DNA from: Afipia birgiae 34632
Lineage (GTDB): Bacteria; Pseudomonadota; Alphaproteobacteria; Rhizobiales; Xanthobacteraceae
Length of the DNA stretch: 64,000 nucleotides
NCBI RefSeq assembly: GCF_000308295.2
Contig: NZ_HG326653.1
Location: 511,901-575,900 of the forward strand
Direction: 5' to 3'
In this document: piece after piece, positions 14,115 to 24,715 of the stretch
Position numbering within the stretch: the stretch's first letter is position 1
Layout: each line of letters starts with the position of its first letter
The notes under the pieces: generated by a model
Seen by the model: the letters and a program-made list of their open reading frames with translations, nothing else
Told to the model about the DNA's origin: nothing
Database searches by the model: none
Translations under genes and position numbers: made by a program

Positions 14115-14732
14115 TCAGTTTCGCCGTCTCGGCATTTTAACGACTTCGCGGAGGATTTCACCGATCCGCTGCCGCACCGGGTCCAGACCGTGGGAGGTGT
14201 CCACCACAAAATCCGCCCGCTTGCGCTTTTCCGCATCAGGAAGCTGCCGCGCAAGGATCGCGTCGAGCTTGTCGGGCGTCATGTTGTCCCGTGCCAAAAT
14301 GCGTTCGCGCTGAATCTCCGGCGTCGTCGTTACCACCACCACCGCATCGACCCGGTTTTCGCCACCGGTCTCGTACAGCAAGGGCACATCAAGAACGGCT
14401 ACCGGCGCTCCCGATGCTTCCGCGTCGCTGAGGAACTTGAGTTGATGGCTGCGCAGCATCGGATGCACGATGGTCTCGAGCCGTTTCATCGCATCGGCAT
14501 TGTTCAAGACCATGGCCGAGAGCTTCTGCCGGTCCACCTTGCCGTCCATGGTGCTGCCGGGAAACGCCGCTTCGACCGCCGGTGCGGCCTCGCCTTCATA
14601 GACCTTATGAACGGTCGCGTCGGCATCGTAGACCGGCACCCCGGCTTCCTGAAACAACTTCGCGGTGGTCGATTTCCCCATTCCAATCGAACCCGTCAAA
14701 CCCAGCAACAGCATCGGCAATTCTTTCGTCAT
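14115..14732 (-). CDS. coaE: Dephospho-CoA kinase
   Basis: Final step of coenzyme A synthesis: ATP-dependent 3' phosphorylation of dephospho-CoA. P-loop [12 protein letters not shown] is near the N-terminus, [11 protein letters not shown] follows, and [13 protein letters not shown] and ILARDN with the lid region are conserved; 205 residues is usual. ATG 14732 overlaps the maf stop by 4 bases (ATGA); a second Met six codons in (MLLLGLTG) is possible, but the overlap favours the first. The first CoA enzyme gene, coaA, is also in this window at 1.9 kb. Confidence 0.97.
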
Positions 14733-15337
14733 ACAGCCAGCAGATTCCGGCTGCGCAGAAAACCAAGCAGCGGCAGCAGCGGCAATCCCAGAATCGTAAA
14801 ATGATCGCCGTCGATGCGATCGAACAGATGCACCCCGGTGCGCTCCAGTTGATAGGCGCCGACGCTTGAGGTAACCGCGTTCCCAGCCTCTTCTATATAG
14901 GCGGCAATCTCGCGTTCGGTCAGAGGTCGCATCGTCATGCGTGCAACGCTGACGTGGGAAAACAGGATTACACCATCCTTCACAACACTGACCGCGCTGT
15001 GCAATGCGTGAGCCTGCCCCGATAACGTCGTGATTTGTGCCGCTGCCGCAGCACGATCTGCAGGTTTGCTGAAAAGCTGCTCGCCGAGCGCCAGCGTCTG
15101 GTCAGCGCCGACGACATATCGGCCGGGATACTTCGCGGAGATGAATGTCGCCTTCTCGCCGGCGAGCAGGCCGGCGATCCTGCCCGGCTCTGTCAATCCG
15201 GAGGTCTGCTGGATCGCGCGTTCGTCGATATCGGCAGGAACGGTCTCCACCGCGATTCCCGCATTCACAAGCAGGCTTTTTCGCACAGCGCTCTGCGATG
15301 CGAGAATCAGGGGTTGCCGTTCACGCCAGACAGTCAC
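14729..15337 (-). CDS. maf: Maf-family nucleoside triphosphate pyrophosphatase
   Basis: Hydrolyses non-canonical or modified nucleoside triphosphates to monophosphates. Maf signatures are [17 protein letters not shown] at the N-terminus, [16 protein letters not shown] and the C-terminal [35 protein letters not shown]. This resembles the second Maf type of rhizobia (Maf-2); exact substrate is not decided. It overlaps ppsR and coaE by 4 bases on each side. In Caulobacter aroE lies between maf and coaE; here it is absent. Confidence 0.94.
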
Positions 15338-16176
15338 GTTTGCGATGCCTTCTGGCGCTGGCGATCGGCGTACAGTTTCATGATCGCCGCGGCGGTTTCC
15401 TCGATCGACCGGCGCGTGACGTCGAGCAACGCCCAGTCGAATTTCGCGCTGAGCTTTCGGGCAAAAGCAACCTCCTCGGTCACAGCCTGACGGTCGATAT
15501 AGGTATCGTCTCCGGTCCTGCCGATGCCGAGCAGACGATTCTGCCGGACCTGGATCAATCGTTCAGGGGTTGCATGAAGACTGACCACCAGCGGCTTCTT
15601 CAGCGTTTCAAGCTGATGCGGAATCGGAATTCCCGGCACCAGCGGTACGTTGGCGGTGCGAACACCTCGATTGGCAAGATAAATCGATGTGGGTGTCTTC
15701 GATGTCCGCGAGACGCCGACAAGCACCACATCAGCCTCCTCGAGGCCTTCAACGTGCTGTCCGTCGTCATGCATCATCGAATAGTTCAACGCATCGATGC
15801 GCTTGAAATACTCCGCATTGAGTGTGTGCTGGGCGCCAACGCGCCGCGAGGTCTCCGTGCCAAGATAAGCCTGAAACAACTGCATCACGGGACCGATGAT
15901 CGACAGGCTCGGAATGTTGATTTCCTGGCACTTCGCCTCGAGCCGCTCGACCAGATCTTTCTCCAGCAGCGTGAACAGCACAATTCCTGGCGCTTCCTCG
16001 ATTTCTGCCAGCACGCGATCAAGCTGCTTCTGGCTGCGGACCAGCGGATAGACATGCTCGACCGGCGAGACATTGGAGTACTGCGCGGCCACTGCACGCG
16101 CGACCGTGATCAGCGTTTCACCGGTCGAATCGGAAATCATGTGGAGGTGAAAATAACTGCCGGTGGTTGTCGCCAT
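15334..16176 (-). CDS. ppsR: Pyruvate, phosphate dikinase / PEP synthase regulatory protein (DUF299)
   Basis: Bifunctional kinase/pyrophosphorylase that inactivates and reactivates pyruvate-phosphate dikinase or PEP synthase by reversible threonine phosphorylation, controlling the pyruvate-PEP switch. Family motifs are [21 protein letters not shown] at the N-terminus, [18 protein letters not shown] (P-loop-like) and YTDRQAV-type [13 protein letters not shown]. This is the family of Rickettsia RP001, the gene bordering the Caulobacter chromosomal origin. Here too its 5' end faces a large non-coding gap with origin-like sites. Confidence 0.95.
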
Positions 16177-16709
16177 GACGTCTCGAATCCGTTTCCGCTC
16201 AATCCGGCGACTGTGAATAGCTGTGAATCCCTGTGGGCATGTTCACCTCAATCCGGCGATGGATCGCACCGCCCGGGATAACCCGCTCTTTCATTCACAG
16301 CGCTGATTTCGGGATGAAATCTGACCGTTGCTGGGATGGTAGCGGGGTTGTGTGGATTTGTCTTGGGATAATGCCGTGTCACTTGCTCTCAAGCGCTTGA
16401 AACCATCGGCATATTCTCTGTCGTCCGGATCTTGTCCAACACCGGGTATAAACCAGCGGCATGTGGATAGTCGCTGGATAAAAGCGGGAGAGCAATGCGC
16501 GAGCGCTAATCACGGTTACACTGACTCAAACTAAGAATCTAAAAAGGATTCTTTAAGAAAGTCGTGCTTGCGGAAACGTCTCGTCTCACGTCATCTATCG
16601 ATGTTGCTCAACACACTAGGCAACGTCTGGTTCCTGTTCTCCAGCCACGATGCCAATTTCGAAACACCGGTTGGCTTGGCAGTTAAAGACAATTCCCACG
16701 GAAGATTCC
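16177..16709. other. oriC: Candidate chromosomal replication origin (oriC) between ppsR and hemJ
   Basis: A 533-bp gap without a credible gene. DnaA-box-like 9-mers relative to TGTGGATAA are TGTGAATAG at 16212, TGTGAATCC at 16222, a reverse TGTGAATGA at 16292-16300, TGTGGATTT at 16351 and TGTGGATAG at 16462; CTGGATAAA follows at 16474. Three GANTC (CcrM) sites cluster at 16523, 16535 and 16547 in an A-rich stretch, with others at about 16226 and 16184. Synteny matches Caulobacter Cori, which lies beside the ppsR/RP001 gene, and rho, mnmE, mnmG, rsmG, parA and parB follow. No perfect DnaA box is present, and full CtrA sites were not found. The gap also must hold promoters for ppsR and hemJ. 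Confidence 0.7.
16533..16553. repeat. A/T-rich inverted repeat with GANTC in both arms
   Basis: Arms AAGAATC and GATTCTT enclose the 7-base spacer TAAAAAG. Each arm contains a GANTC methylation site, and a third GACTC lies 10 bases upstream. It is the most A/T-rich spot of the gap and could be part of the unwinding region or a methylation-sensitive site. Confidence 0.7.
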
Positions 16710-17132
16710 ATGTACGAATGGATCAAGGCGCTACATGTGATCGCGGTCATCTCATGGATGGCCGGTATGCTCTATCTGCCGCGATTGTTCGTCTACCACT
16801 GCGACGCGGAGATCGGTTCGAAGCAATCCGAAACTTTCAAGGTGATGGAGCGCCGCCTGCTCAAGGCGATTATCAATCCGGCGATGATCGTGACCTGGCT
16901 GGCCGGCTTGTGGCTGGCCTGGCAGGGTGGCTGGTATGTCTCCGGCTGGTTTCACGCCAAATTCGTGCTGGTGCTGGTTCTGTCGGGGGTCCACGGCTTT
17001 TTCAGCGCCCGGGTGCGGGATTTCGCCCAAGATGCAAATACCAGAACTCAGAAATTCTATCGTATTATCAATGAAGTACCGACTGTTTTAATGATCGCTG
17101 TCGTGGTTCTGGTGATCGTCAAACCGTTCTAG
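16710..17132 (+). CDS. hemJ: HemJ-like (UPF0093) membrane protein, putative protoporphyrinogen IX oxidase
   Basis: A 140-residue protein with four hydrophobic segments. The N-terminus YEWIKALHVIAVISWMAGMLYLPRLFVYH carries the conserved His of the family; LLKAIINPAMIVTWLAGLWLA and FHAKFVLVLVLSGVHGFFS follow. HemJ oxidises protoporphyrinogen IX to protoporphyrin IX in haem synthesis. I chose ATG 16710 (MYEWIK), preceded by GGAAGATTCC; an upstream in-frame ATG adds an unrelated 20 residues. In related bacteria hemE and hemH often sit next to it near the origin; here neither is present, only hemJ. It may be co-transcribed with rho 277 bases downstream. Confidence 0.88.
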   Translation: MYEWIKALHVIAVISWMAGMLYLPRLFVYHCDAEIGSKQSETFKVMERRLLKAIINPAMIVTWLAGLWLAWQGGWYVSGWFHAKFVLVLVLSGVHGFFSARVRDFAQDANTRTQKFYRIINEVPTVLMIAVVVLVIVKPF

Positions 17133-17409
17133 AGCGGCCAGCCTTTAGGCTCTGCGTCAATGATCGCCTTGCGTGAAGCCGGACGATTTTCTATATATCT
17201 GTCATCCCACCGAACGCAGGTGGATGTGGTTGAGTCCCGGTCTCATTGTTGGACCGGCCGCCACATCAGGTTCGAAGCCTCCCGGCACCTTCCTCGCTCA
17301 AGACCTGCGGACTTCTGATCGCGTTTGTAGTCCGTATGTCGTCAGCAGGCTGAACCTTTCGCTCCCCTCCCCATTCTCTTTTCTCCACACGCTCCACAGG
17401 ACAACCCCA

Positions 17410-18675
<1,266 letters not shown>

Positions 18676-18716
18676 TGTGACTGCCTGATAGCCGATAGGC
18701 GTCAGCTCGTTTTCAG

Positions 18717-18746
18717 TGCCCGGCCTTGCGCCGGGCATTTTCTTTT
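18717..18746 (+). terminator. Intrinsic terminator downstream of rho
   Basis: TGCCCGGC and GCCGGGCA form an 8-bp GC-rich stem with a CTTGC loop, followed by TTTTCTTTT. It lies 42 bases after the rho stop and separates rho from mnmE. Confidence 0.88.
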
Positions 18747-18887
18747 GGCGAACCAAGTTTCTATTGTGCGACGCAGCACGGCGTATGTTGCGCTTCAGGT
18801 CGTAACATATTGCAATGCAGCATAATTCGACATCACCATAGCTGGGAATTTTCATTGCCTGTCCGGCATGTGTCCGACAAATAGGCC

Positions 18888-20225
18888 ATGCATTCCCCAG
18901 ATCAGACCATCTTTGCTTTGTCCTCCGGACGCGCGCCGTCAGCGATTGCCATCATCCGCGTGTCCGGTCCGCAAACCCGTTTAGCGATCGAGCGGCTTTG
19001 CGGAAAATTGCCCGCGCCTCGTCTTGCCCAGTTCGCGACCCTGCGGGATCTTGACGGCAGCGCTATCGACGAATCGGTCGCCCTCTGGTTTCCGGGTCCG
19101 CACAGTGCGACGGGCGAAGACGTCGCGGAATTTCAGGTTCATGGCGGCCGCGCGGTGATCGCAGCGATGTTCGATGCGCTCAGTGCCATAGACGGCTTGC
19201 GTCCGGCGGAGCCGGGTGAGTTCACGCGCCGCGCGTTCGAAAACGGCAAGCTCGATCTCACCGAAGCGGAAGGTCTCGACGATCTGATTCACGCCGATAC
19301 CGATCGTCAACGCCGCCAGGCGTTGCGGCATCTGAAAGGATTGCTGGGTGCAAAGGCCGAGAGCTGGCGGCAGCAGATCATCGAAGCATCGGCGTTGATC
19401 GAAGCAGGCATCGATTTTTCGGACGAGGGTGATGTTTCGGCAGAGCTTGTCGCGCCGGCGTTACGCAAGATCGCGGCGTTGAAATCGGAAATCGAAGAAA
19501 CCCTTGCGGCATCGGCACAAAGTGAACGTCTGCGCGAAGGCCTGACGGTTGCGATTGCCGGTCCCCCAAACGCTGGCAAGTCGACGTTGCTCAATCGCCT
19601 CGCGCGGCGCGAAGCTGCGATTGTGTCACCGCACGCCGGCACCACACGCGACGTCATCGAAGTGCATCTCGATCTCGACGGTTACCCGGTGACGCTGATC
19701 GACACGGCGGGTGTGCGCGATACCCACGATCCGGTCGAGCAGGAGGGTGTGCGCCGCGCGCGCGATCGTGCGCGCACGTCCGACCTGGTGTTGTGGCTTG
19801 TCGATGCGAACGACAGGAATGCGCCGACGCCGCAAAGCGATGGCGACCACGCGCCGGTCTGGATCGTGCGCAACAAGGTTGATCTGGTCGCTGTGAAAGG
19901 CGAGGGCGCCGGGGCGACGGGGCGGTTCGATGTTTCCGCGTCGCGTGGTGATGGTGTCCCGGAGCTGATCGCAGCGCTCGTGATCTACGCCCGGGACTAT
20001 TTTGGATCGGGCGAAATGGCGCTGGTCAGCCGCGCCCGGCACCGGACCTTGTTACGGGAGACGGTCGCCGCGCTGGGACGGGCAGGGCGCTCGGCCGACA
20101 AGGGGGATGAACTTCTGGCCGAAGAACTACGAATCGCGATTCATTCATTAGGCCGATTGACTGGCAGAGTGGATGTCGAGGACATTCTTGACGTTATCTT
20201 CCGCGAGTTCTGCATCGGGAAGTAG
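18888..20225 (+). CDS. mnmE: tRNA modification GTPase MnmE
   Basis: With MnmG it installs the 5-carboxymethylaminomethyl group on U34 of certain tRNAs. 445 residues: N-terminal folate-binding domain starting [10 protein letters not shown], the G domain with G1 AGPPNAGKS at 225-232, DTAGVRDT (G3) and RNKVDL (G4), and the C-terminal FCIGK with the catalytic Cys at 442. The partner gene mnmG follows at 20336 after a gap holding parS. The old name is trmE. Confidence 0.97.
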
Positions 20226-20264
20226 GCCAGTGGCCCCTGCGGGTTCCAGATAGGCCAATGACCT

Positions 20265-20280
20265 TGTTTCACGTGAAACA
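20265..20280. promoter_or_regulatory. parS: parS centromere site 1
   Basis: TGTTTCACGTGAAACA is a perfect 16-bp palindrome identical to the widely conserved chromosomal parS recognised by ParB. It lies 56 bases upstream of the mnmG start and about 3.8 kb from the candidate oriC. parA and parB are 2.6-3.6 kb downstream. Confidence 0.95.
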
Positions 20281-20335
20281 TCCGGGATGCATTTCCGTCT
20301 TTCAGCTTTCGCACCAAAGCGATAGAAGTCTGCCG

Positions 20336-22204
20336 ATGCAGACATTCGACGTCATTGTGATCGGGGGGGGGCACGCCGGCTGCGAAGCGGCGGCAGCGTC
20401 TGCGCGCATGGGTGCGAAAACTGCGTTGGTCACCCATCAATTTGCGACCATCGGCGCGATGTCCTGCAATCCGGCCATCGGAGGCCTTGGAAAGGGCCAT
20501 CTGGTCCGGGAGATCGACGCCCTCGACGGCCTGATGGGCCGGATCGCGGACCGGGGCGGCATCCAGTTCCGGGTTTTGAACCGCCGCAAAGGGCCCGCCG
20601 TCCGTGGTCCTCGCGCCCAGATTGACCGCAAGCTTTATGCGGCCGCGATGCAGGCCGAAATCCGGGAAACGCCCAACCTGATCGTGATTGAGGGCGAGGC
20701 TGACGAGCTATTGCTCTCTGAGGGCCGAGTTTGCGGGATTCGCCTCGGCGACGGTCGGGAATTCGCCGTAGGCGCGGTAGTTGTGACCACCGGGACCTTT
20801 TTGCGGGGCCTGATCCATCTGGGCGAGAAGAATTGGCCGGCGGGACGGGTCGGAGAGGCCCCGGCGATGGGTCTCTCAAGATCTTTCGAGCTTGCCGGAT
20901 TTGTTCTGGGTCGCCTGAAGACCGGAACGCCGCCGCGCCTCGATGGCTCGACCATCGATTGGTCTGCGGTCGAAATGCAGCCGGGGGACGACCCAATCGA
21001 GCCGTTTTCGGTGCTGACCGACCGGATCACGACCCCACAGATCGAATGCGGGATCACCCGGACCACCAACGCCACCCATGAGGTCATCCGCGCCAATGTC
21101 CATCGCTCGCCGATGTATTCCGGCCAGATCAAGAGCACCGGCCCGCGTTATTGCCCGTCCATTGAGGACAAGATCGTCCGTTTCGGCGACCGCGACGGCC
21201 ACCAGATCTTCCTGGAGCCCGAAGGGCTCGACGACACCACGGTTTACCCCAACGGGATCTCCACATCGCTGCCGGAAGAGGTTCAGCAGGCCATTCTGGC
21301 CAGCATTCCCGGCCTCGAGCAGGTGAAAATGGTCCGTCCGGGCTATGCCATCGAATACGATCACGTCGATCCACGTGAACTGGAGCCGACCCTGCAAACC
21401 CGACGGGTGCCGGGGCTTTTCCTGGCCGGGCAGATCAATGGCACCACCGGCTATGAAGAAGCCGGTGCGCAGGGGCTTGTGGCCGGGTTGAATGCCGCGA
21501 TTCTCGCCGGGGGCGGAAAGCCCGCTGTGTTCGACCGGGCTGACGGCTATCTCGGGGTGATGATCGACGACCTGACGTCGCGCGGCATCACCGAGCCGTA
21601 CCGGATGTTCACCTCGCGCGCCGAGTATCGTTTGACGCTGCGCGCGGACAACGCCGATCAGCGCCTGACCGACCGGGGTATTGCGCTCGGCTGTGTAGGC
21701 GCGGAGCGGGCAGGGCGGCATGCCGGCAAGATGGAAGCACTTAACGCCGCAAAATCGTTGGCGAAATCGCTCTCGGTGACGCCCAACGAGGCCGCAAAGC
21801 ACGGCCTGATGCTCAATCACGACGGTCAGCGCCGCACGGCGTTCGAAATGCTGGCGTATCCCGAGGTGGAATGGGCCAACATCACGTCAATATGGCCGCA
21901 GCTCAACGCAATCGATCCGAAGATCGCGGTCCATCTGGAGATCGACGCCAAATACGACGTCTATCTCGCCCGCCAGGCTGCAGATGTGCAGGCCTTCCGC
22001 CGCGACGAGGGACTGGTTCTGACCGATGTGGACTACAGCGCTGTCCCGGGCCTCTCGAACGAGGCGCGGCAGAAGCTCGAAAAGGTGCGGCCGCGGACCA
22101 TCGGGCAGGCGGGCCGGATCGAGGCAATGACCCCTGCGGCGCTGGCCATTCTCGCGGCCTATTTACGCCGCGAGGCGCGCCGATCCTCAGCGGCTTCGGC
22201 ATAG
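20336..22204 (+). CDS. mnmG: tRNA uridine-5-carboxymethylaminomethyl modification enzyme MnmG
   Basis: FAD-dependent partner of MnmE (old name gidA). 622 residues: dinucleotide-binding [16 protein letters not shown] at the N-terminus, the signature [34 protein letters not shown] and the C-terminal helical domain. I chose ATG 20336 ([11 protein letters not shown]). The frame is open to ATG 20258, but that extension would be translated through the parS palindrome and has no similarity. The frame starts 110 bases after mnmE stops. Confidence 0.97.
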
Positions 22205-22213
22205 GCGCATCTC

Positions 22214-22870
22214 ATGGCCAAACCGGCCCTCGTTTCCATTCCAGCCTCGGACAAGGCGGCGGCTTTGGCGCTGACTCCTGTTTCACGTGAAACAGGAGCC
22301 CGTCTCGATCGCTATGTCGATCTCCTGGTGCAGTGGCAGGCCAAGACGAATCTGATCGCGCCCTCCACGCTTCCGCAGCTCTGGACCCGGCACGTCTCCG
22401 ATTCGCTTCAACTGCTGGACTTGGCTCCCAACGCCCGTCGTTGGCTGGACTTTGGCAGCGGCGGTGGTTTTCCCGGCGTAGTGCTGGCCTGTGCGATGGC
22501 CGAGCACGAAGGCGCAAACGTCCAGCTGGTGGAGCGCAACGCCAAGAAGGCCGCATTTCTTCGAGAGGCATTGCGGGTGACCGGCGCTGCCGGCTCAGTT
22601 GTCCTCGCTGACATCGGGGATTATGTGGATAGTTTGCAGACGCCGGTCGATTGCATCACTGCCCGCGCAGTTGCTCCACTACATATGTTGCTGGGTTTTG
22701 CTGCGCCTCTGGTGCAGCAAGGCACCAAGGCCTTGTTCCTAAAGGGACAAGATGTAGAGGCCGAATTGACGGAAGCTACTAAATACTGGAATATAGAGCC
22801 TCTTCTTCATCCCAGTCGCACCGGCGGACACGGTTGGATCGTCGAACTCAATGCGATTGAGCGGCGATAA
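22214..22870 (+). CDS. rsmG: 16S rRNA (guanine-N7) methyltransferase RsmG
   Basis: Methylates G527 of 16S rRNA using SAM (old name gidB). The SAM-binding motif WLDFGSGGGFPGVVLA is around residue 75-90, and VQLVERNAKKAAFLREA and ARAVAPLHMLL follow. 218 residues is normal. It starts 9 bases after mnmG. Residues 22-28 (PVSRETG) are encoded by a perfect parS palindrome, so this coding segment is constrained by ParB binding too. Confidence 0.96.
   Translation: MAKPALVSIPASDKAAALALTPVSRETGARLDRYVDLLVQWQAKTNLIAPSTLPQLWTRHVSDSLQLLDLAPNARRWLDFGSGGGFPGVVLACAMAEHEGANVQLVERNAKKAAFLREALRVTGAAGSVVLADIGDYVDSLQTPVDCITARAVAPLHMLLGFAAPLVQQGTKALFLKGQDVEAELTEATKYWNIEPLLHPSRTGGHGWIVELNAIERR
22275..22298. promoter_or_regulatory. 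parS: parS centromere site 2, extended palindrome inside rsmG
   Basis: The core TGTTTCACGTGAAACA (22279-22294) is identical to site 1; CTCC before and GGAG after extend it to a 24-bp perfect palindrome. It lies within rsmG codons 21-29 and is about 2.0 kb from site 1. Confidence 0.95.
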
Positions 22871-22891
22871 GGCGTCCAGCAACAACAAGGC

Positions 22892-23758
22892 ATGGCCACG
22901 CACATGGTTGGCATCGACGGAATTTTTCAAGACGAGAACGGCGCGACAGCCCAGCGGGGCCATCCCCGGATTCTGGCGCTCGCCAATCAGAAGGGTGGCG
23001 TCGGCAAGACCACGACCGCCATCAATCTCGGAACTGCCCTCGCGGCTATCGGCGAGCGGGTGCTGATCGTCGATCTCGATCCGCAGGGCAACGCCTCAAC
23101 GGGACTTGGCATCGACCGGCGCAATCGCAACTGCTCGACCTACGACGTGCTGATCGGCGAGGCCAAGCTGCGCGAAGCAATCATTCCAACCGCGGTCCCT
23201 CGCCTGCACATCGCGGCATCGACCATGGATCTGTCGGGCCTTGAACTTGAACTCGGCACCACGCGCGACCGCGCGTTTCGCCTGCGCGATGCGATCGCCG
23301 AACTCAACGTCAATGTCGCGCCCGACACCGACTACACCTATGTGCTGGTCGATTGTCCGCCGTCGCTCAATCTCATCACCGTCAATGCCATGGCGGCGTC
23401 GCACGCGATTCTCGTGCCGCTGCAGTGTGAGTTCTTCGCGCTCGAAGGCCTGTCGCAGTTGCTGCAGACCGTCGAGCAGGTTCGCTCGACGCTGAATCCG
23501 ACGCTGTCGATTCACGGCATCGTGCTGACGATGTTCGACTCGCGCAACAACCTGTCGAACCAAGTTGTCGCCGATGTGCGACAGTTCATGGGCAACAAAG
23601 TCTACAACACCATGATCCCGCGTAACGTGCGTATCTCCGAAGCACCGTCTTACGGAAAGCCGGTGCTGGTTTACGATCTCAAATGCGTCGGCAGCGATGC
23701 GTATCTGAAACTCGCGACCGAAGTGATTCAGCGCGAACGCGAGCTGCGTTCGCACTGA
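22892..23758 (+). CDS. parA: Chromosome partitioning ATPase ParA
   Basis: Walker-type ATPase that moves ParB-parS complexes and thus new origins. 288 residues: deviant Walker A KGGVGKTT at 34-41 with signature Lys, LIVDLDPQGNASTGLG, and DYTYVLVDCPPSLNLIT. A 25-residue N-terminal extension precedes the ATPase core, as in alphaproteobacterial chromosomal ParA. ATG 22892 is preceded by a weak purine stretch; a second Met at codon 5 is possible. It is followed by parB after 75 bases. Confidence 0.97.
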   Translation: MATHMVGIDGIFQDENGATAQRGHPRILALANQKGGVGKTTTAINLGTALAAIGERVLIVDLDPQGNASTGLGIDRRNRNCSTYDVLIGEAKLREAIIPTAVPRLHIAASTMDLSGLELELGTTRDRAFRLRDAIAELNVNVAPDTDYTYVLVDCPPSLNLITVNAMAASHAILVPLQCEFFALEGLSQLLQTVEQVRSTLNPTLSIHGIVLTMFDSRNNLSNQVVADVRQFMGNKVYNTMIPRNVRISEAPSYGKPVLVYDLKCVGSDAYLKLATEVIQRERELRSH

Positions 23759-23833
23759 AATATTATTGTGTGTAGTTGAGGTCGGGCTGAAGCGATGTCG
23801 GGAGTGCGTGGGTTGAGTGCAAGGGAGACGGCA

Positions 23834-24715
23834 ATGGCCGACGAGCGTTCGCGATTGGGTCGCGGTCTTGCAAGTCTGATTGGCGATGTCGGCGGCGAAG
23901 CTGCTCACGTCGATCGTCCCGCGCGCACGCCGCGCCGCGTTCCGATTGAATTTCTCAAGGCCAATCCGCGCAATCCGCGCCGCACGTTTTCCGATGTCGA
24001 GCTCGACGAGTTGTCGGCCTCGATCAAGCAGCACGGCGTGATTCAGCCGATCGTGGTCCGGTCGGTGAAGGGCGCGACGGATCGTTTCGAGATCATTGCC
24101 GGCGAACGTCGCTGGCGCGCGTCGCAGCGCGCGGGTCTGCATGATGTGCCGATCGTCACCACCGAGGTGAACGACAGTGACGCGCTCGAGATCGCGATCA
24201 TCGAGAACGTACAGCGCTCGGATTTGAACGCGATGGAAGAAGCGCAGGGCTATCACGCGCTTGCCGCCGAGTTCAAACGCAGCCAGGAGGATATCGCCAA
24301 GATCGTCGGCAAGAGCCGCAGCCATGTCGCCAACATGATGCGTCTGACCAAACTGCCGGATCAGGTTCAGGCTTATATCGCCGAAGGCAAGCTGTCCGCC
24401 GGACACGCGCGCGCGCTGATCAATCTGCCGGATGCCGCAGCGGCTGCGAAGCGGATCGTCGAGGAAGGTCTGAACGTGCGTCAGACCGAAGCACTCGCGC
24501 ATGAAGAGGGTGTGCCGGAGCGCAAGCCGCAGAAGGCGCGCGGGGCGGCGCCTGCAAAAGATCCTGACACCATCGCGCTTGAAAAGCGCGTCAGCGATGT
24601 GCTCGGCCTGAAGGTGAGTGTCGATCACCGCAATCCCGGCGGCACGGTGCAGATCAAGTACACCGATCTCGATCAGCTTGACGAGATTTTGCGGCGGCTT
24701 GAAGCAGGTAAATAA
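23834..24715 (+). CDS. parB: Chromosome partitioning protein ParB
   Basis: CTP-dependent clamp that loads at parS and recruits ParA and SMC. 293 residues: N-terminal LGRGLASLIGD (ParA-contacting region), VPIEFLKANPRNPRRTF, CTP-binding GERRWRA at 90-96, IIENVQRSDLNAMEEAQGY, the parS-reading helix-turn-helix (EDIAKIVGKSRSHVANMMRL), and a C-terminal dimer domain. I chose ATG 23834 (MADERSRLG) with AAGGGAGA just upstream instead of the frame's earlier ATG at 23795. It converges with holA; a hairpin covers the junction. Confidence 0.97.
   Translation: MADERSRLGRGLASLIGDVGGEAAHVDRPARTPRRVPIEFLKANPRNPRRTFSDVELDELSASIKQHGVIQPIVVRSVKGATDRFEIIAGERRWRASQRAGLHDVPIVTTEVNDSDALEIAIIENVQRSDLNAMEEAQGYHALAAEFKRSQEDIAKIVGKSRSHVANMMRLTKLPDQVQAYIAEGKLSAGHARALINLPDAAAAAKRIVEEGLNVRQTEALAHEEGVPERKPQKARGAAPAKDPDTIALEKRVSDVLGLKVSVDHRNPGGTVQIKYTDLDQLDEILRRLEAGK

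Follow-up and report, generated by a model that had tools for sequence, protein, structure and literature searches.

In Caulobacter crescentus the chromosomal origin, Cori, sits between hemE and COG1806 and contains five CtrA sites (PMC1914354). Its high-affinity DnaA box is unlike TTATCCACA and is accompanied by weak W-boxes (PMC4285127). Several GANTC sites are located in this origin, and CcrM is described as dispensable for the control of initiation (PMC3973325). In Hyphomonas marker frequency peaks near hemE (PMC6650430). For the Bradyrhizobiaceae, Ori-Finder (2008) put forward TGTTTCACG as the DnaA box and placed the origins next to gidA (mnmG); Rhodopseudomonas, Nitrobacter and Bradyrhizobium are named, and all ten genomes available at that time had the palindrome TGTTTCACGTGAAACA (PMC2275245). 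The gidA origin was adopted for Oligotropha carboxidovorans OM5, where a 150-nt origin with four tgtttcacg is described (PMC3091675).

We analyzed a 64-kb stretch of Afipia DNA, here called the window (C2:511901-575900 of a 5.33-Mb genome in five contigs). An earlier note on these letters had proposed that the 533-bp gap beside ppsR is oriC. This proposal is supported by a switch in GC skew, the ppsR-hemE arrangement shared across the class (28 of 29 listed loci), an excess of conserved DnaA boxes whose footprints align among relatives, a stability minimum and a near-invariant GANTC in the unstable element. Judging from sequence, we think it very probable that DnaA-dependent replication of the chromosome starts in the gap, at the Cori position, which is the ancestral one in Alphaproteobacteria. 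Three points go beyond the earlier note: hemE has gone from the border, the gidA origin in print probably needs correction, and the least stable part of the gap carries GANTC sites in nearly all relatives.

Like Cori, the gap is bordered by ppsR (COG1806) and has DnaA boxes other than TTATCCACA, some of them weak, an A/T-rich part and GANTC motifs (PMC1914354, PMC4285127, PMC3973325). Unlike Cori with its five CtrA sites, the gap has no TTAA-N7-TTAA within one mismatch, it is bordered by hemJ with hemE absent, and its GANTC sites concentrate in the least stable element. The candidate is an origin in a lineage without hemE at the border and without a Caulobacter-type CtrA site in this gap, with GANTC in its least stable element. 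The window resembles Hyphomonas neptunium in having an origin region with parAB and TGTTTCACGTGAAACA as parS, the Hyphomonas parAB being about 7 kb from hemE. This likeness is one of position. In H. neptunium, unlike Afipia, hemE is near the marker-frequency peak (PMC6650430).

The ppsR-hemJ gap and its neighbors

The putative oriC occupies positions 16177-16709, and the borders proposed in the earlier note hold. On its left ppsR (COG1806/DUF299; Kinase-PPPase PF03618, Pfam E 8.2e-90), the gene that borders Cori, lies on the minus strand at 15334-16176, and its product is 98% identical to PpsR of Afipia sp. OHSU_II-C1 and A. massiliensis. On its right hemJ (UPF0093, Pfam E 4e-60) lies on the plus strand at 16710-17132, where most listed class loci have hemE. 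The hemJ reading frame is open from 16650; we set the start at 16710, since that methionine is where tblastn matches in relatives mostly begin. Mechanically called reading frames at 15145-16281 and 16568-17074 overlap the two ends of the gap, which we judge to be non-coding. A search of 15000-18000 with Rfam returned no family at the gathering threshold.

To the right of hemJ, all on the plus strand, are rho (17410-18675), mnmE (18888-20225), mnmG (20258-22204; the published indicator gene for the origin of the family), rsmG, and parA (22892-23758) with parB (23795-24715). Pfam matches to these genes and to hemJ agree with the gene path read earlier from the letters. The ParB protein matches a solved chromosomal ParB (E 9.1e-71). 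A parS had also been placed on this path, and exact matches to the parS core GTTTCACGTGAAAC, which appears in print as a DnaA-box motif, were found at 20266-20279 and, within rsmG, at 22280-22293. In Caulobacter parAB-parS lie on the same side of the origin as in the Afipia window.

We searched 57 genomes of the class, our own included; 37 had PpsR, and 29 of the 36 other genomes were listed as loci. In 28 of these 29 loci, all from other families, the hemE start is 313-873 bp upstream of the ppsR start. The sole listed class locus without hemE beside ppsR (L219) has hemJ 1.3 kb away. Within the family, among the best 29 of 59 other genomes with PpsR, the neighbor of ppsR was hemJ in 14 and hemE in 15. 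In our genome hemE has moved off the origin border to another contig (C1:2130737-2131753) and hemJ borders the gap instead. This relocation is consistent with print, because in R. palustris and Bradyrhizobium sp. S23321 hemE is described as part of the cluster of photosynthesis genes (PMC4036050). The hemE locus itself was given a second look, as it has a perfect DnaA box about 0.5 kb upstream, and was rejected; the box is inside a nitronate monooxygenase gene.

The comparison across relatives suggested in the earlier note was carried out with the ppsR-hemJ gaps. Of 111 loci 19 gave no usable gap (3 contig ends, 15 of the hemE type and the hemE locus itself). After the window copy and identical rows were dropped, 93 rows became 89 distinct gaps, and the footprints described below align in 88 relatives. 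Per base the gap is less conserved than the hemJ-rho gap: 58 of 533 columns reached 95% or more versus 73 of 277, in 74 sequences. Conservation alone therefore proves nothing, and the case rests on boxes, position, skew and stability.

DnaA boxes and the unstable element

We found six boxes within two mismatches of TTATCCACA in the gap, at 16212 (-), 16291 (+), 16351 (-), 16363 (-), 16462 (-) and 16473 (-). Dinucleotide shuffles of the gap had a mean of 1.25 boxes and none of 500 reached six. The earlier note was right that DnaA-box-like 9-mers are present; its count of five was one short. When 819 kb of the genome were sampled as 7993 overlapping windows of 533 bp, eight reached six boxes; three of these cover the gap, and the other five fall on a single cluster upstream of prmA. 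Five or more boxes combined with four or more GANTC sites occurred in 3 of the 7993, all over the gap.

Conservation of the boxes was scored against TTATNCACA in the 88 relatives, with a slide of two bases allowed. At the left edge three DnaA-box-like motifs with TGTG cores form an array on the minus strand (16212-16240), spaced 10 bp apart at 16212, 16222 and 16232, and these are within two mismatches in 36, 78 and 19 relatives, respectively. The plus-strand motif TCATTCACA (16291-16299) is kept within two mismatches in 87 relatives and within one in 80. On the minus strand the same two-mismatch limit is reached by AAATCCACA (16351-16359) in 56 relatives, by TTATCCCAA (16363-16371) in 79, and by the best box of the gap, CTATCCACA (16462-16470), in 80, with 60 at one mismatch or fewer. 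The last motif, TTATCCAGC (16473-16481, minus strand), is poorly kept (5 of 88). Thus five positions (16222, 16291, 16351, 16363 and 16462) are retained in 56-87 of the 88 relatives. When the same scoring was moved along both gap strands in 7-bp steps, the median was 0.00 and the 90th percentile 0.05.

None of these boxes is perfect, as the earlier note had said, and this is true of all 89 distinct hemJ-type gaps. Nor did any of the 15 hemE-type family members have a perfect box within 700 bp upstream of ppsR, while 10 of the 29 loci listed from other families have one in that interval. The high-affinity box of Caulobacter also differs from TTATCCACA (PMC4285127), so that, taken alone, the lack of a perfect E. 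coli box in an origin is nothing unusual. A by-eye search for DnaA-trio repeats gave none that was convincing. The DNA-binding domain of the encoded DnaA retains GGRDHTTV, as in the solved DnaA 8btg, which we take to be that of B. subtilis.

To the right of the boxes, 16514-16563 is a putative DNA-unwinding element; by nearest-neighbor energy no other 50-mer in the 64-kb window is less stable. The gap contains six GANTC sites, the target motif of CcrM, against a shuffle mean of 3.10; this count is weak alone because 36 of 500 shuffles reach six. The three clustered sites pointed out earlier were all recovered within the unstable element. The first (16523-16527) is exact in 73 of 88 relatives and the second (16535-16539) in 87, each with a two-base slide, and the third (16547-16551) is rarely kept (11 of 88). 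On a ppsR tree the second site shows 9 changes at its middle base (N), against 2-3 at each of its four fixed bases. The first site has no such contrast, with 9 changes of the first base and 4 of the middle base. An A/T-rich hairpin formed by the second and third sites (16533-16553, plus strand; DNA fold -4.3 kcal/mol, a value matched by 2 of 200 shuffles) had also been described; it is present in the window, but as a structure it is not conserved: only 11 of 88 relatives have the GANTC in its 3' arm.

The placement of GANTC in the unstable element extends beyond the window. In the least stable 60 bp of the hemJ-type gaps, GANTC is present in 88 of 89 and at least twice in 80 (mean 2.04 versus 0.19 after letter shuffling). 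For the hemE-type family members the corresponding counts are 12 and 7 of 15 (mean 1.33 versus 0.21), and for the loci listed from other families 14 and 2 of 29 (mean 0.62 versus 0.14). Genes for GcrA and for a CcrM homologue (L231:1378-2511; E 6.6e-156 to 6pbd) are present in the genome. GANTC methylation may matter at the gap and, more speculatively, methylation of the GANTC pair by CcrM could tune opening or re-firing. In the E. coli oriC the 13-mers carry Dam GATC sites. The likeness, a methyltransferase site repeated in the unwinding element, is in the way of working only, since enzyme and motif are different. GANTC within an origin is not new as such, because several are placed in the Caulobacter origin; CcrM is described as dispensable there (PMC3973325), whereas in the gap the CcrM target motif falls within the stretch expected to open.

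We also looked for sites of two other proteins. The CtrA site TTAA-N7-TTAA does not occur within one mismatch anywhere in the 64-kb window. Among 74 gaps, sites at one mismatch were present in 19%, versus 9% of letter shuffles, and therefore some relatives may have a CtrA site; at two mismatches the gaps and their shuffles had 2.97 and 3.02 sites per gap. A palindromic near-match to the IHF consensus WATCAANNNNTTR, with one mismatch, lies at 16387-16402. Such near-matches were found in 55% of the 74 gaps versus 18% of letter shuffles.

GC skew and the published origin at gidA

In the window GC skew flips from negative to positive at 19101, with a 4-lnL range of 14701-23801; the skew minimum is at 19041 and the keto-amino minimum at 18645. 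The gap is inside this range, and so the refuting result named in the earlier note, a skew minimum well away from 16-17 kb, was not obtained. The best change point is off the gap itself, 2.4 kb past its right edge. In 10-kb bins sampled along contig C2, skew is negative in 5 of 6 bins between 1 and 220 kb and in all from 330 kb to the gap but the one at 440001, and it is positive in all from the gap to the contig end (965 kb) but the one at 770001. On C1 9 of 10 bins up to 1.02 Mb are positive and skew is negative from 1.25 Mb onward; we take this second turn, between about 1.0 and 1.25 Mb, as the terminus. The sampled stretches of C3 and C4 are negative and C5 is mixed (-0.002 and +0.024). 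In G043, a family member with a single contig, skew is -0.012 before ppsR and +0.038 after it; by 5.0 Mb, roughly opposite, it has turned negative once more, and a single bin in between, at 3.0 Mb, is also negative. The best change point there is to the left of ppsR, and the gap is 0.6 kb outside the 2-lnL range (1915051-1922901) and 5.2 lnL below the best point.

An origin next to dnaA was rejected. The dnaA gene (C2:754 kb) is 226 kb away, no lasting skew switch is nearby, only one weakly negative bin at 770001, and the 600 bp upstream of dnaA contain no DnaA boxes.

The motif on which the gidA origin was based has a second reading in the literature. The palindrome TGTTTCACGTGAAACA was used as the oligonucleotide for ParB binding in a shift assay with the alphaproteobacterium Hyphomonas (PMC6650430), and it is tabulated as the Hyphomonas parS consensus (PMC7022226). 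We compared the ppsR loci of relatives (the best 80 of 137 loci) and left out of the parS count the 19 without mnmE or mnmG. An exact parS core was found at the mnmE-mnmG junction in all 61 relatives with both genes. By its sequence and context the TGTTTCACG motif is most probably parS. This suggests that Ori-Finder, a widely used tool, placed the family origin a few kilobases off by taking parS segregation sites for DnaA boxes. Among the literature matches listed, a scope outside which subscription papers and DoriC fall, we found no correction of the gidA claim, and a word search of the Ori-Finder 2022 main text for "Bradyrhizobi-" found nothing. The core at 20266-20279 starts 8 bases into the listed mnmG frame, an offset also seen in many relatives.

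Weighing the alternatives

That the origin adjoins gidA, with TGTTTCACG as family-specific DnaA boxes, has two published reports behind it (PMC2275245, PMC3091675), and it concerns the same few kilobases and the same skew switch as the gap. The two positions are 4 kb apart in the window and at least 9 kb apart in G043, G038, G056 and G060. In the window mnmG is inside the change-point range and closer to the best point than the gap is. By third-codon skew rho looks lagging, as a gidA origin would predict, whereas hemJ and mnmE look leading, in a measure whose baselines overlap widely. In eight genomes, where 4.1 to 14.0 kb separate mnmG and ppsR, the skew likelihood prefers the ppsR gap in seven (differences of 3.4, 4.3, 0.6, 0.2, 2.2, 10.8, -0.7 and 1.1 lnL), strongly only in G043 (10.8). 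G024 prefers mnmG by 0.7 lnL and so is slightly against the gap, G056 is near indifferent, and the surroundings in G060 have no usable skew switch; moreover the likelihood overstates, because bases are treated as independent. The boxes separate the two positions further. The mnmE-mnmG gap of the window is 32 bp long with no boxes, and within two mismatches of TTATNCACA the ppsR-hemJ gaps have 8.50 boxes per 500 bp versus 1.31 around mnmG, being higher in 60 of 61. With the gidA origin resting on a palindrome used as parS and read as DnaA boxes, and with parB present in the window, we regard an origin at gidA as very unlikely; box density and, less strongly, skew favor the ppsR gap.

The gap could also be merely a divergent promoter region, its boxes regulating transcription and the origin lying elsewhere nearby. 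Both ppsR and hemJ do diverge from it, and the hemJ-rho gap is better conserved per base though it is no origin candidate. However the other six gaps, from hemJ-rho to parA-parB, have 2, 0, 0, 0, 0 and 0 boxes, the box-bearing gap is retained where hemJ takes the place of hemE, and the equivalent position is a mapped or inferred origin in other Alphaproteobacteria (PMC1914354, PMC6650430), all of which makes the promoter reading highly improbable. To the idea that the true origin is instead the denser box cluster upstream of prmA (C1:2509.6-2509.8 kb) we give almost no credence. Two of its boxes are perfect and lie 12 bp apart, and 533 bp there hold as many as 10 within two mismatches, but skew is negative on both flanks (C1 2250001-2510001 and from C1 2600001 on), and four or more such boxes were found in only 11 of the 30 family loci listed, our own included.

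For the ppsR-hemJ gap as the origin, we infer the following course of initiation. DnaA would load on the graded, weak-to-moderate boxes at 16212-16470, none of them perfect, and would then open the adjacent A/T-rich element at 16514-16563, from which two forks would depart in opposite directions. The new origins would be segregated by ParB-ParA through the parS sites, which lie 4-6 kb further right. If so, segregation sites seem to have guided the annotation of the origin in a large family, and moving it to the ppsR gap would have consequences for the numbering of genomes, for growth rates estimated from read depth and for studies of replication control.

Two further regions drew our attention. 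The hemJ-rho leader (17133-17409), highly conserved as described above for the 74 sequences, is a possible structured leader of rho, and a search of 16600-17700 at E up to 1 assigned it no Rfam family. The prmA cluster is the densest group of DnaA boxes in the sampled genome (L038:9660-9800, that is C1:2509660-2509800), with two perfect TTATCCACA and several near ones. A prmA-like gene (PF06325) is directly downstream, and a locus from the same genus (L172) is also dense. It is possible that this cluster serves as a DnaA titration or regulatory site.
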